The position numbers were made by a program, and so were the translations under genes. From NCBI GenBank assembly GCA_947173495.1, contig CAMWFQ010000037.1:1-34387 (forward strand): a stretch of DNA of 34,387 bases. Reading direction: 5' to 3'. This document shows positions 217-12,230 of the stretch, piece by piece (the stretch's first letter is position 1; every line of letters begins with the position of its first letter). The stretch is from an uncultured Lachnospiraceae bacterium. GTDB taxonomy: Bacteria; Bacillota; Clostridia; Lachnospirales; Lachnospiraceae. A model generated the notes under the pieces. It worked only from the letters and a program-made list of their open reading frames with translations, had not been told where the DNA came from and did not search any database.

Positions 217-302
217 CGGAGAGGATGGGATTCGAACCCATGCGCCCTTGCGGACAAACGGTTTTCAAGACCGCCTCGTTATGACCACTTCGATACCTCT
301 CC
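217..302 (-). tRNA. tRNA-Ser (anticodon UGA)
   Basis: The minus strand gives a class II tRNA with acceptor stem GGAGAGG/CCTCTCC and discriminator G, anticodon loop CTTGAAA (anticodon TGA), a long variable arm and T-loop GGTTCGAATCC. The 5' end lies about 25 nt after the predicted start point of a strong promoter (334-362), so this gene heads a two-gene serine tRNA transcript. CCA is not encoded. Confidence 0.96.
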
Positions 303-4707: not shown

Positions 4708-4835
4708 CTCCTCATTTCTGCGCTGCTTTGTTGCGCTAAGCCATGATATAGCTAAAGCATATTATATGCTTAACAAGTTTGTGGCAAGCAACGCGCAGAC
4801 ACAAATCTCGCGATTGAAAATTTTAATTTTCAATC
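4708..4835 (-). repeat. Intercistronic structured element between tsaB and rimI (family P)
   Basis: In transcript order there are: a perfect 10-bp AT hairpin (826-835 with 812-821 of 4.8 kb) containing the tsaB stop codon in its loop; a hairpin TTTGTG/CACAAA (778-805); a perfect 8-bp hairpin AAGCATAT/ATATGCTT (755-771); then two segments, GCAAC (730-734) and GCGCAGA (717-723), complementary to the loop of the second hairpin (788-799), giving 12 bp with a 6-nt bulge; then AAT and the rimI Shine-Dalgarno (4708-4713). The same order of parts recurs at 7872-7999. Confidence 0.7.
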
Positions 4836-6647: not shown

Positions 6648-7865
6648 TTATTCATGCCGCAGGGCTTCTATGGGACTAAGCTTCGCTGCTTTTCTTGCCG
6701 GATAGATTCCGAAGAAAATACCGATGCCGCAGGAAAAAAGTGACGCCGCAAGCACAACTCCCGCACTGATCTGAGCCGTAACCCCTGCAATAGAACAGAT
6801 TCCCATGGCTCCCAGAATTCCCAGAATAATTCCGATAATACCGCCCAGCAGGGTGATAATACCCGCCTCCGCCAGAAACTGCAACAGCACCGAACCTGTC
6901 CTTGCTCCCAGCGCTTTTCTGATACCAATCTCTCTGGTTCGCTCTGTCACAGACACCAACATGATATTCATAACGCCAATACCGCCCACCAGAAGAGAAA
7001 TCGCCGCCACAAAAGAAATAAAGATCGTAATGAATCCCAGTATGGTATCGAACTGAGCTGTGTAGTCCGCAAAGCTCTCTGTCATAATCTGGTTTTCTCC
7101 CCGGACATTGTGTCTGCTCTCCAGCAGTGCCATTACTTTAGATGCGATTTCTGTGGAATATTCCGGCGCTTCCGCAATCACATAAAACTGTTCAATCTCG
7201 TCTATATAGTATCCCAGTTTGTTTGCCATAAAGGTAAGAGGCACCTCTGCCTGTATGGTGACAACTCCATAGCCCGTATTGATCAGACTGGACGCATTGT
7301 CTTTGCGGATACCCACAACACGCAGCTCCTGGGTCACTCCCCAGAAAGTAGCATCAAAGCTCATACCGATCACATCGCTGGTTCCAAAAAGGGCTACCGC
7401 ACTGCCTTCTGTAATAATACAGGTATTTGCAGCGCTGTCATAATCATTCTGGGTAAAATATTTCCCCTTGATAATGGGATCCGAAGAGGTATATTGAAGG
7501 CCTGTGGTTCCTCCGCTCATACGGATATCGAAATCTCCCTTTGGCCCCTCTGCTGTCCCCCAGGTTCCAAAAGTCGGCGTTACTCCTTTCACGTGGGGAA
7601 TCTGCTCCTGGATCGCATCAAAGTCCGCCTGGCTGAAAGTCACCGTTGTATCCTTACGGGTGCTGTCCACATAGAAGGCGATCTGTCCTCCGACAATTCC
7701 CTCCAGTTCTGAATTCACCTCTCCGCGGACACCATTACCGGTGGAAATTACCATGATCACCGACGCAATACCAATAATAATTCCCAGCATAGTAAGAATA
7801 GAACGTCCTCTGTTGCTCCTGATATTCATCAGTGCAATCTTGATGTATTCCCAAATCTGTGCCAT
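6648..7865 (-). CDS. ABC exporter permease, MacB/FtsX type
   Basis: A 405-residue permease. A first membrane segment (about residues 20-42, containing TMLGIIIGIASVIMV) is followed by an extracytoplasmic MacB-type domain of about 220 residues, and then three membrane segments in the C-terminal FtsX domain, with the conserved VTERTREIGIRKALGA loop near residue 315. It should work with the ATPase and adaptor encoded just upstream to export a small molecule or peptide. I chose the ATG at 7865 (GGAG 6-7 nt upstream, usual family length); the reading frame is open further upstream only because a repeat element there lacks stops. Confidence 0.9.
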   Translation of the reverse strand: MAQIWEYIKIALMNIRSNRGRSILTMLGIIIGIASVIMVISTGNGVRGEVNSELEGIVGGQIAFYVDSTRKDTTVTFSQADFDAIQEQIPHVKGVTPTFGTWGTAEGPKGDFDIRMSGGTTGLQYTSSDPIIKGKYFTQNDYDSAANTCIITEGSAVALFGTSDVIGMSFDATFWGVTQELRVVGIRKDNASSLINTGYGVVTIQAEVPLTFMANKLGYYIDEIEQFYVIAEAPEYSTEIASKVMALLESRHNVRGENQIMTESFADYTAQFDTILGFITIFISFVAAISLLVGGIGVMNIMLVSVTERTREIGIRKALGARTGSVLLQFLAEAGIITLLGGIIGIILGILGAMGICSIAGVTAQISAGVVLAASLFSCGIGIFFGIYPARKAAKLSPIEALRHE

Positions 7866-7871
7866 TTTAAT

Positions 7872-7999
7872 CTCCATTCCGGAGCGTTTACGCGACGGGG
7901 CGACGCAAATCTCCAATTTGCGTCTGCCATCAGGGCTTATTTGTGACGCTCCGGCACAAATAGCCGTATGAAAAATCAGCACATCAGTGTGATTTTTCA
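7872..7999 (-). repeat. Intercistronic structured element between macA and macB (family P)
   Basis: In transcript order: a 10-bp hairpin TGAAAAATCA/TGATTTTTCA (7990-7999 with 7969-7978) directly abutting the adaptor stop codon; a hairpin TATTTGTG/CACAAATA (7938-7962) with a 9-nt loop; a perfect 9-bp hairpin GACGCAAAT/ATTTGCGTC (7902-7924); a segment ACGCTCCGG (7879-7887) that is a perfect 9-nt complement of the second hairpin's loop; then AAT and the downstream gene's GGAG. Layout and position match the element at 4708-4835, though the stems differ in sequence. Confidence 0.75.
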
Positions 8000-9496
8000 C
8001 TATTCCTCCATACTGCCAGGAGCCGGCAGCGCAGCTACCGCCATGCCTTCCACCAGATTCGCTGTCACATCCGTCACAATCTGTTCTCCTTCACTCAGCC
8101 CTTCCACTACCTGCACCATAGTGTCAGAAGAAATTCCCGTCACAATCCGTTTCTTTGTCAGGATTCCGTTTTCCACTACATAAACGAACTCTCCCTCCAT
8201 ATCCACATTGACGGATGTCACTGGTATCAACACTGCATTGTCCGCATGATCTGTACTGATGATCACCTTGGCTTCCACGCCCAGAATCACATCGCTGTCA
8301 GGATTATTGATCCGTATCTCTGTGCCTACCACTGCAGCGCCGCTGTTATTGGTCTCAGCCATCTTGTTGATCTTGGAAACCTCGCCATCGTATTCCTTAC
8401 TTGCAATCGTTACTTTTGCTTTCTGTCCCACGGCGATCTTATCCAGATCATATTTGGTGACAGAAATTTTCACCATCACATTCTCTGTGCTCTCCAGCTT
8501 AAGAAGCTGAGATCCCGCGGTTACCGTTCCGCCCTCCACCGCATTCATTTCTGTCACCACACCATTAAACTCAGCGGTTATTCCATTTTCTACGGCTGTA
8601 AGATTTTCCAGAGAATCAGCAGCTTCTATTTCCTTGGTCTGATTTTCGGCTTCCAGTTCTTCCTTTGCACCGGAAGTCATTTTTCCTGCCTCTGCTGAAC
8701 TTTGCTGGGATTTCATTTCCGAGCGGTATTCCTTATAATCTGAAAGCATCTTGTTGTATACATCCAGCTCATCCTGCCATCCCTTGATTTCTTTATTATT
8801 CTGCTGTTCATAGCTGTTGAGCTGTACCAGCTTCTGCAGATTCATATATTCTTCCGAGTCCGGCTGATCCTGCCAGTCCAAAAGCGAAATCTGAAGCAGC
8901 GTACCCTCATAGGCCAGATCGCTCTTTTTCTTTTCGATCTTGTTTTCCAGTCCTGTTATGTATGCTTCTGTATCTGCGATCTGCTGATCCAGAACCTCCA
9001 GATTGACATTTGCCTCGCTTAAATCTCCCAGTTTCTGATTATTACTTTGTACGGAATTTTTGTAACTGCCTTCCGCAGACTGCGCTTTGAGCTGTGCAAG
9101 CTCCTTTTCTTTCGCCAGAGCATCAGCATCATAGGCAATCAACACATCTCCTGCCTTCACAGCATCTCCCGCAGACACAGCCACCTCGCCGATCCGCACG
9201 TCCACATCCGAAAAATAGCTCCTGGTTTTCTCTGTGGTAACCGTGCCGCTGGTGTTAATGGTCTGTTCGATCTCCCCTGAAACGGCGCCTGCGGTCGCCA
9301 CAAAAGTCTGCGCACTGCCTGCGCCAAGAACATTTTTAACAACTACAAAAAGTATGATCACACCAATGATACTGCATGTGATGATCCGCCTGCGCTTCTT
9401 CCTTCCCGCGGCATCCAGCGGCTTCTTTTCCTTTTTGGGTTTCTTCTCTTTCTGAGGTAATGCTTCTATTTCCCCTTCTGATTTCTTTTTAAACAT
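8000..9496 (-). CDS. MacA/HlyD-type membrane fusion (adaptor) protein
   Basis: A 498-residue adaptor. A Lys-rich cytosolic N-terminus is followed by one membrane anchor at about residues 38-58, the first half of a biotinyl-lipoyl domain ([19 protein letters not shown] near 110), a long coiled coil (about 130-290), the second lipoyl half ([24 protein letters not shown] near 310-335) and a beta-barrel domain. It should bridge the ATPase-permease pair on the outer face of the membrane, as in Gram-positive MacAB or YknXYZ-like exporters. GGAGGAG lies just upstream of the ATG. The stop codon touches the palindromic element that precedes the permease. Confidence 0.92.
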
Positions 9497-11970: not shown

Positions 11971-12025
11971 GATTTAAATGCCTTGTTCACAACCGCTTTG
12001 CACACACTGCAAAACGGTTCCTTTT

Positions 12026-12207
12026 CTTCTCTCATCCAGACTATACTGTTGGTTTTGGAATTTCACCAAATCAGCCAATTCGTTTCGCCGTGTTTCCATA
12101 CTGCTGTCAGTCAGTATGACTGCAAACCTGCATGAAGACCTCCCGCCGAAAAACTCATGGGTCGCGGACTGTACCGCCAGTAGGGAATTTCACCCTGCCC
12201 CGAAGAA
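12026..12207 (-). ncRNA. FMN riboswitch (RFN element)
   Basis: The minus strand carries the conserved blocks of the FMN aptamer in order: CTTCGGGGCAGGGTGAAATT, then GGCGGT, AGTCCGCGACCC, a variable hairpin, TTTGGTGAAATTCCA, and CAACAGTATAGTCTGG ending GATGAGAGAAG. These are the ligand-core sequences of the class, followed by a terminator, so the RNA should repress the riboflavin transporter ribU when FMN is plentiful. Confidence 0.97.
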
Positions 12208-12230
12208 CTTTTCTTTATTTTACGAAATTT

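Follow-up and report, generated by a model that had tools for sequence, protein, structure and literature searches.

A dispersed, pseudoknotted RNA element between the Shine-Dalgarno sequence and the start codon of Lachnospiraceae genes, probably a non-autonomous mobile element

The window is the whole 34,387-nucleotide stretch of Lachnospiraceae DNA that was analysed. On its minus strand a gene for a macA-like membrane fusion protein is followed by one for a macB-like permease, and the gap between them (minus strand 8000-7866) holds a folded element, here called F1. The macA stop codon is TAG at 8002-8000, and the first hairpin of the element starts directly after it. The features of the locus are as follows.

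8000-9496, minus strand: upstream gene, macA-like membrane fusion protein (Pfam HlyD_D23 and HlyD_3)
8005-8010, minus strand: native (left) Shine-Dalgarno sequence TGGAGG at the end of macA, recognised by sequence and stranded upstream of the F1 element
7872-8000, minus strand: whole F1 element, 5' end at 8000 and 3' end at 7872, between the macA stop with the native Shine-Dalgarno sequence and the macB start codon
7968-8000, minus strand: hairpin A, beginning with a GTG codon, supported by the fold and a covarying stem
7955-7962, minus strand: 5' arm TATTTGTG of hairpin B, whose stem is stem 1 of the pseudoknot
7946-7954, minus strand: loop CCGGAGCGT of hairpin B, with the pseudoknot 5' strand at positions 3-9 and a probable linker at positions 1-2
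7938-7945, minus strand: hairpin B 3' arm CACAAATA
7902-7924, minus strand: hairpin C, GACGCAAAT-TGGAG-ATTTGCGTC, variable in sequence and covarying
7879-7887, minus strand: pseudoknot 3' strand ACGCTCCGG, perfect complement of the hairpin B loop, whose CTCC can alternatively pair with the Shine-Dalgarno GGAG
7872-7878, minus strand: element-borne Shine-Dalgarno sequence AATGGAG for macB, recognised by sequence
6648-7865, minus strand: downstream gene, macB-like permease (Pfam MacB_PCD and FtsX)

In this copy the stem of hairpin A is formed by TGAAAAATCA and TGATTTTTCA plus CAC/GTG, the arms of hairpin C are GACGCAAAT (7924-7916) and ATTTGCGTC (7910-7902), and six nucleotides separate AATGGAG from the macB ATG (7865-7863). 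All the parts listed in a preliminary description of this gap, namely hairpins A, B and C, the loop complement, AAT and the macB Shine-Dalgarno sequence, were found on the minus strand. The gap also folds much more stably than expected by chance, with a minimum free energy of -52.3 kcal/mol (z -5.04) that was equalled by 0 of 200 shuffles. A scan of the window with Rfam 15 placed only an FMN riboswitch (12020-12211, minus strand, 109.1 bits) and two tRNAs (79-167 and 217-302, minus strand) above the cut-off. The best matches within F1 and within a second element near 4.7 kb, F2, reached 11.3 bits against a cut-off of 49 and 16.4 bits against one of 39, and at E<=5 each element gave a single chance-level match. 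The view that no published family corresponds to the gap therefore holds at the Rfam gathering cut-off.

Copies of F1 are dispersed. A BLAST search with the gap sequence gave 31 matches at E<=1 in the whole genome of origin, and at E<=0.001 it found matches in 11 of 40 genomes, among them the genome of origin and a member of a different family within the order. A homologue search of the kind suggested in the preliminary description was made with a covariance model, R1, built from 26 copies; it returned 57 matches at E<=1 in the same genome, 22 of them below 3e-5. The window copy, itself among the 26 training sequences, was matched over 7872-8002 with 131.3 bits. The 22 strong matches can be read as roughly 18 F1 places, once four are set aside: a reverse-strand match on an F2 copy, two variant families (L064 and L066), and a match to the remaining half of a copy that is interrupted. 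The possibility of a single locus, raised earlier as an argument against the element, thus gave way to many copies. Both F1 and F2 occur as short, dispersed, non-autonomous copies, as MITEs do.

Beyond this genome, the distribution of F1 was patchy. The F1 loop pattern occurred in 35 of 397 genomes of the family, own genome included, with 23 matches in genome G540, and the same pattern read backward was found in no genome among those listed from the 397. A class-wide scan matched 2 of 291 genomes, again including the genome of origin, which under its strict filters is a lower bound. The pattern was present in at least 119 stretches of a named collection. According to the titles of 80 of these, most come from Lachnospiraceae or from genera such as Acetatifactor, Eisenbergiella, Roseburia and Lachnospira, and the remainder mostly from bins labelled Clostridia, Eubacteriales, Clostridium, Eubacterium and, once, Bacillus. 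Three unrelated matches, in Cycloclasticus, Pelagibacteraceae and Pseudoalteromonas, show the loop pattern without the other parts of the element.

Intact copies are about 105-155 bp long, non-coding, and lie in sense orientation relative to the gene. From 5' to 3', the old Shine-Dalgarno sequence is followed by hairpin A, by hairpin B, whose loop takes part in the pseudoknot, and by hairpin C; then come the 3' strand of the pseudoknot, AATGGAG, a spacer of about 6 nt and the start codon. Hairpin A opens with TAGTGTGAAAAATC, AAGGTTGAATAAAT or AAGATTGAAAAT, the stem of hairpin B is TTTGTG/CACAAA, and TTTGTG, GRAGCG, TGATGGCAGA and AATGGAG are strongly conserved. No terminal inverted repeats were seen by eye, the left ends (TAGTGTGAAAAATC / AAGATTGAAAA) and right ends (CGGAATGGAG) not being inverted copies of each other. 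A set of 197 right-end copies was retained after 41 of 238 anchors with low scores or misplaced ends had been dropped. Hairpin A could not be aligned in 44 of the 197, a few of which have a different or shortened hairpin there; hairpin A is therefore dispensable for the host gene.

The structured element is not specific to macAB, and the rule common to its copies is their place between a Shine-Dalgarno sequence and a start codon. In 174 of 192 right-end copies (the 197 minus five too near a sequence end), a start codon at +11 to +16 after the pseudoknot strand opened a frame of 50 codons or more, compared with 1860 of 23000 random positions (8.1%). The other 18 copies have no such start where it would be expected, and in at least four of them a further element follows. 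Among copies found through the hairpin B loop, the strict rule gave 96 of 110 with a start opening at least 50 codons, to be set against the same random rate. The first ATG lay exactly 13 nt past the pseudoknot strand in 135 of the 197 copies, and 12-14 nt past it in 166. A search for hairpin B with its loop in named-collection and viral loci yielded 132 matches, 117 with at least 7 of 8 pairs in the partner strand and 108 with a start opening at least 50 codons or reaching the end of the stretch. A looser count, ATG, GTG or TTG within 12 nt of the right-end motif, reached 194 of 197, but its chance rate is 38% (4734/12330), and the stricter measure was therefore relied on. The few downstream genes that were identified, the macB-like permease, a GNAT acetyltransferase (Pfam) and leuD (by sequence), are unrelated.

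Of 145 full copies, 106 have GGAG or GAGG in the 14 nt that precede the element on its 5' side; the three windows farther upstream contain either motif in 11, 9 and 9 of the 145. In the 44 copies that do not align over hairpin A, either motif stood at the break in 5, against 1, 5 and 6 in control windows. The complete element thus lies immediately behind a Shine-Dalgarno sequence, and this boundary is usually lost in decayed copies.

Comparison with relatives showed sites without the element. The leuD gene carries F2 in the genome of origin, and no element lay within 150 nt of it in any of the 22 relatives compared, of which 16 belong to the genus and 6 to other families; two of the 25 leuD loci, L224 and L225, were left out. 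Most of these show the end of leuC, a short spacer, a Shine-Dalgarno sequence and ATG, and a few have a longer or different upstream stretch. At locus L041 the site is empty in G013 (CAGGAGGTAAAAAATGGCAAG), G008 (CAGGAGGTAAAATATGGCAAG) and G019 (CAGGAGGTAAGAAATGGCAAG) and filled in G003, where the element lies between CAGGAGGTAAAG and AATGGAGGAAAATATGGCAAG. At L031, G018 is empty (AAAGGAGCGTGAGTATGAAAATT) and G007 is filled, between AAAGGAGCGCAGTGTG and AATGGAGGAAAAAATGAAAATT. The macA-macB gap itself is empty in G008 (GAGTGGAGGTAGAAATGGCACAG). When the flanks of 15 loci were joined, one-piece matches across the junction were obtained in several genomes, for L031, L041 and L001 among others.

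Target duplication differed between genomes. It was clear in G386 (8 copies, 9.38 against 5.61 in shuffles, 0/2000), G556 and G520 leaned toward it (64 and 88 of 2000), G650 and G030 fell below the shuffles, and it was absent in the genome of origin for both F1 (7 copies) and F2 (19 copies). The similarity of the F1 flanks over 49 copies in 12 multi-copy genomes was 6.42 against 5.32 (0/2000), and in a second set of 85 copies 5.73 against 5.08 (0/2000), the latter inflated by nested insertions. These tests inherit the error of the hairpin A stem finder, which succeeded in 92 of 139 copies and placed some boundaries a few nucleotides off. In the genome of origin the right-hand Shine-Dalgarno sequence appears to belong to the element, since it is constant while the left flanks differ and no excess similarity is found. 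In G386, by contrast with a constant sequence, each copy has a right-hand Shine-Dalgarno sequence that matches its own left flank, as a target duplication would. In copies L161-L164 of that genome, target-specific Shine-Dalgarno sequences flank the element on both sides, unlike in the genome of origin. It looks as if there were two insertion modes, judging from these sequences.

Nested insertions were also observed. By pattern search, the right end of an older element lies directly upstream of 10 of the 145 full copies. In the genome of origin, two tandem units of a different repeat, which have the sequence GGCATTGCAGATACCACCATGAATGAAAGGG in common, interrupt an F1 copy (L013, about 1490-2110; G000 contig C3 near 223618-224121), so that different repeat families nest in this genome.

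The conservation of the RNA structure was evaluated by covariation, and hairpins A, B and C together with the loop pairing all covaried, in agreement with the earlier proposal of a structured RNA with homologues. F1 is thus a conserved structure with covariation that lies 5' of start codons. In the 26-sequence alignment, 12 of 16 pairs of hairpin A had changes on both sides with 81% of cells paired, hairpin C (helix 6) had them in 5 of 7 pairs, and the outer helix around hairpin C was only 80% paired. With the pseudoknot written in, paired cells amounted to 88.4% against 77.1% in shuffled and 33-44% in slid alignments, the covariation score was 0.281 against 0.131 shuffled (reached by 0 of 500) and 0.046-0.090 slid, and cells changed on both sides numbered 128 against 49.9 shuffled and 25-37 slid; the structure was written from two of these mutually related sequences, and the controls thereby favour it. 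The pair count and the pair-type count beat the shuffles less strongly, being reached by 9 and 5 of 500.

The loop pairing was examined in 169 distinct copies, which remained from 269 loop matches in redundant, overlapping loci after 71 without the strict right-end motif had been dropped and repeats merged. Loop position 4 and its partner formed G-C in 87 copies, A-U in 58, G-U in 21, other combinations in 3 and A-C in 0. This position was Watson-Crick in 145 of 169, compared with at most 101 in 500 shuffles, and position 9 covaried too (132 against at most 127 in 500 shuffles); the copies are related sequences and the pair counts are not independent events. The tolerated G-U pairs in the sense strand fit RNA and are compatible with a single-stranded DNA role as well. 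Loop positions 1 and 2 showed no covariation with their partners in the 169 copies. The whole 9-nt loop had been described as pairing downstream; this is true of the window copy, where the complement is perfect, while across the copies a helix of about 7 bp and a linker of 2 nt are probable, given that positions 1 and 2 do not covary. Hairpin B and the loop pairing had further been suggested to exclude each other. They need not do so, since an H-type pseudoknot can be built with 7 bp in stem 2 and 2 nt in loop 1, and both could then form together.

The F2 element shares the topology of the macA-macB gap element, with which the preliminary description had grouped it. Its features are listed below.

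4708-4835, minus strand: F2 element, before a GNAT acetyltransferase gene (Pfam) with probable start codon ATG 4703
4835-4812, minus strand: F2 hairpin A
4805-4800, minus strand: F2 TTTGTG
4799-4784, minus strand: F2 loop
4783-4778, minus strand: F2 CACAAA
4723-4717, minus strand: F2 pseudoknot 3' strand GCGCAGA
4712-4708, minus strand: F2 Shine-Dalgarno sequence AGGAG

An in-frame ATG at 4715 is a longer start choice for the GNAT gene. The pseudoknot helix of F2, TCTGCGC/GCGCAGA, occupies the same place as that of F1 and is wholly unlike it, and the second segment of its loop varies together with the partner in some copies (GTTGC/GCAAC against GCTGC/GCAGC) and not in others. BLAST with F2 gave 87 matches in the genome of origin, 40 below 1e-25 with the copy in the window included, and F1 model matches touched 23 of these 40 strong places, nearly all weakly. 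Loop matches with up to one mismatch numbered 59 in this genome; of the 37 genomes of the genus, three others had 10, 3 and 1 and the remaining 33 had none, a distribution that looks like a lineage burst. A search by pairing plan (TTTGTG-type hairpin, loop partner, Shine-Dalgarno sequence and start codon) over 1.6 Mb of loci found 138 F1, 26 F2 and 1 F2 variant, forward counts that are uninformative for loci chosen mostly for holding elements; the same search on the reversed sequence found none. At two loci of G000 there seem to be additional families built on this plan: L064 has the loop pairing GCCGC/GCGGC before ATGGAGG, and L066 is a shortened form before AAAGGAG.

Dispersal, empty sites in relatives, a near-fixed position, and conserved sense-strand hairpins with an H-type pseudoknot ending before the element's own Shine-Dalgarno sequence are together best accounted for by a non-autonomous mobile element of the gap between Shine-Dalgarno sequence and start codon, carrying a pseudoknotted replacement ribosome-binding site, in Lachnospiraceae and near kin; we consider this reading likely. 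Insertion between the two signals would strand the old Shine-Dalgarno sequence upstream. Hairpin A, a few nucleotides past it, would usually bury an NTG codon and so disable the old signal, and the host gene would then be translated from the element's AATGGAG, as the sequence suggests. The pseudoknot would keep this Shine-Dalgarno sequence open and, in F1, would occupy the CUYC strand that is able to cover it. The element may thus persist by replacing the ribosome-binding site that it displaces, with a trans-acting enzyme presumably recognising the Shine-Dalgarno-to-start region as its target.

A bolder form of this reading, which we put forward tentatively and at somewhat below even chances, is a transposable element that targets the translation-initiation region itself. 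It would read the Shine-Dalgarno sequence and start codon, perhaps as mRNA or via the ribosome, insert between them, silence the old ribosome-binding site by a hairpin, install a pseudoknot-protected one, re-insert at its own right end and put dozens of genes under one RNA leader. Two candidate mobilisers were considered, and neither was matched in all element-bearing genomes tested. Elements derived from IS200/IS605 have subterminal hairpins, no inverted repeats and a fixed orientation to the target, and F1 shares these traits; unlike what they would lead one to expect, Y1 transposase was matched in only some of the 14 element-bearing genomes and gave no match in 8 of them, including the genome of origin (G000, G007, G018, G520, G540, G650, G483 and G556; these are drafts, in which a missing match is not final). 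It was matched in 5 of the 12 genus genomes where the BLAST survey had found no F1. In SINE-like or group II intron retroelements many copies keep the 3' end and lose the 5' end, and copies with only the 3' end occur here too. RVT_1 had no match in 4 of the 14 (G540, G009, G030 and G650), one of these being 99% complete with 23 loop matches, and was matched in 8 of those 12 genus genomes. G540, which has 23 loop matches, had neither a Y1 nor an RVT_1 match. Truncation at the 5' end was rejected as a mark of retrotransposition, since the Shine-Dalgarno motif stands at the break about as rarely as in the control windows, which fits later decay and is unlike truncation at insertion. That breaks cluster at hairpin B is in part due to the search itself, as many copies were found through its loop.

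Another interpretation is a cis-regulatory RNA regulon, a riboswitch-like or protein-binding leader in which the pseudoknot frees the Shine-Dalgarno sequence, pairing of CUCC/CUUC with GGAG gives the off state, and spread is incidental. The riboswitches preQ1-II, preQ1-III and SAM-II are pseudoknots with a Shine-Dalgarno sequence at the 3' end. F1 and F2 share with them an H-type pseudoknot with an inserted hairpin that ends at that sequence, like a translational leader, and the strong conservation of the F1 motifs would suit such a role. The F1 strand CUCC/CUUC indeed has alternative partners, the loop or the Shine-Dalgarno GGAG, and a hairpin covering the latter is present in the minimum free energy fold of the gap. 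This hairpin was computed at -4.9 and -3.4 kcal/mol, against -11.2 and -8.8 for the 7-bp pseudoknot helix, which outweighs it so that no switch is needed, and the counterpart piece of F2 folds no such hairpin (0.0 kcal/mol). Such a two-state switch, which is another one than the exclusion of hairpin B and loop pairing first suggested from the sequence, may exist in F1, where the covering hairpin is weak, and is not required by the computed energies. Near-identical copies before different genes, unrelated as far as the few identified ones go, empty sites in relatives and wholly different F1 and F2 helices set these elements apart from pseudoknot riboswitches, and we regard a regulon as unlikely.

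It could also be supposed that F1 is an ordinary MITE-like repeat which inserts at random, and that copies survive only before start codons since they carry a Shine-Dalgarno sequence. Its short, dispersed, non-coding copies with hairpin ends, some of them decayed, are what one would expect. Under random insertion, copies at neutral intergenic, antisense and 3' sites should survive as well, yet they are rare among our copies, which form no complete genome census, and nearly all right ends lead into a gene-like frame. The old Shine-Dalgarno sequence is kept directly at the left end of most full copies, inverted terminal repeats were not seen by eye, and duplication is not constant, all of which make this account improbable. 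Least probable of all, and rejected as the main reading, is a leader peptide with translational coupling, started at the hairpin A NTG from the native Shine-Dalgarno sequence, melting the pseudoknot and restarting at the gene: an NTG opens hairpin A in 130 of 145 full copies and the window copy's frame runs into macB, but that frame stays open through the right-end Shine-Dalgarno sequence in only 44 of the 130 (1 and 24 in the other frames), 86 have a stop before it at varying places, some have NTG followed by an immediate stop, and copies lacking hairpin A rarely show GGAG/GAGG at the break (5/44).

The mobile element with a replacement ribosome-binding site can be compared with small repeats already described. 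According to PMC3049150, the pneumococcal repeats BOX, RUP and SPRITE, like bacterial MITEs and like F1 and F2, are small, dispersed, strongly folded, without a transposase of their own and now and then inserted into one another. BOX and RUP have terminal inverted repeats and target duplications (PMC3049150), in contrast to F1 and F2, where no inverted repeats were seen and duplications are inconsistent. A further difference is that F1 and F2 sit in the gap between Shine-Dalgarno sequence and start codon with their own Shine-Dalgarno sequence. A review of MITEs, PMC10969869, uses none of the terms Shine, start codon or ribosome binding in its main text. Among the matches listed from the open literature, a scope outside which most subscription papers fall, no paper described such an element by its title and the start of its abstract. 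We know of no small repeat that lies by rule between a Shine-Dalgarno sequence and a start codon with its own pseudoknotted ribosome-binding site. Small, dispersed and folded repeats are of a known kind, and the new aspect would be this location together with the pseudoknotted site. A survey of 2017 reportedly contains 224 candidate structured RNAs, and one of its motifs may overlap F1 or F2.

If the preferred reading is true, F1 and F2 would be mobile elements that bring along an entire ribosome-binding site in the form of a folded RNA module and land where this module can replace the displaced one, an unusual solution to harmless insertion beside needed genes. Gut anaerobes would then possess a natural collection of translation leaders that can be exchanged for one another, and the idea that one repeat family rewires how many genes are translated could be tested on them.

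Viral contigs were searched with the same loop patterns. F2 had no viral match, and nine contigs matched that of F1. Only one of them, L390 (IMGVR_UViG_3300024268_002848, minus strand near 1870), has the full right half of F1, without a recognisable hairpin A; its partner strand is followed by a Shine-Dalgarno sequence and the start codon of a 597-codon open frame, which continues past the end of the available stretch. This contig may be a vehicle or host DNA. Phage carriage was rejected; six of the other viral matches share the loop ATGGAGCGG without a partner and look like chance.

Gene annotation is affected where a copy has landed, with start sites and leader lengths shifting. In the window, the GTG of hairpin A (7998-8000, minus strand) is in frame with macB and the frame stays open into it, so that automatic annotation may add to MacB 45 residues read through the F1 element.
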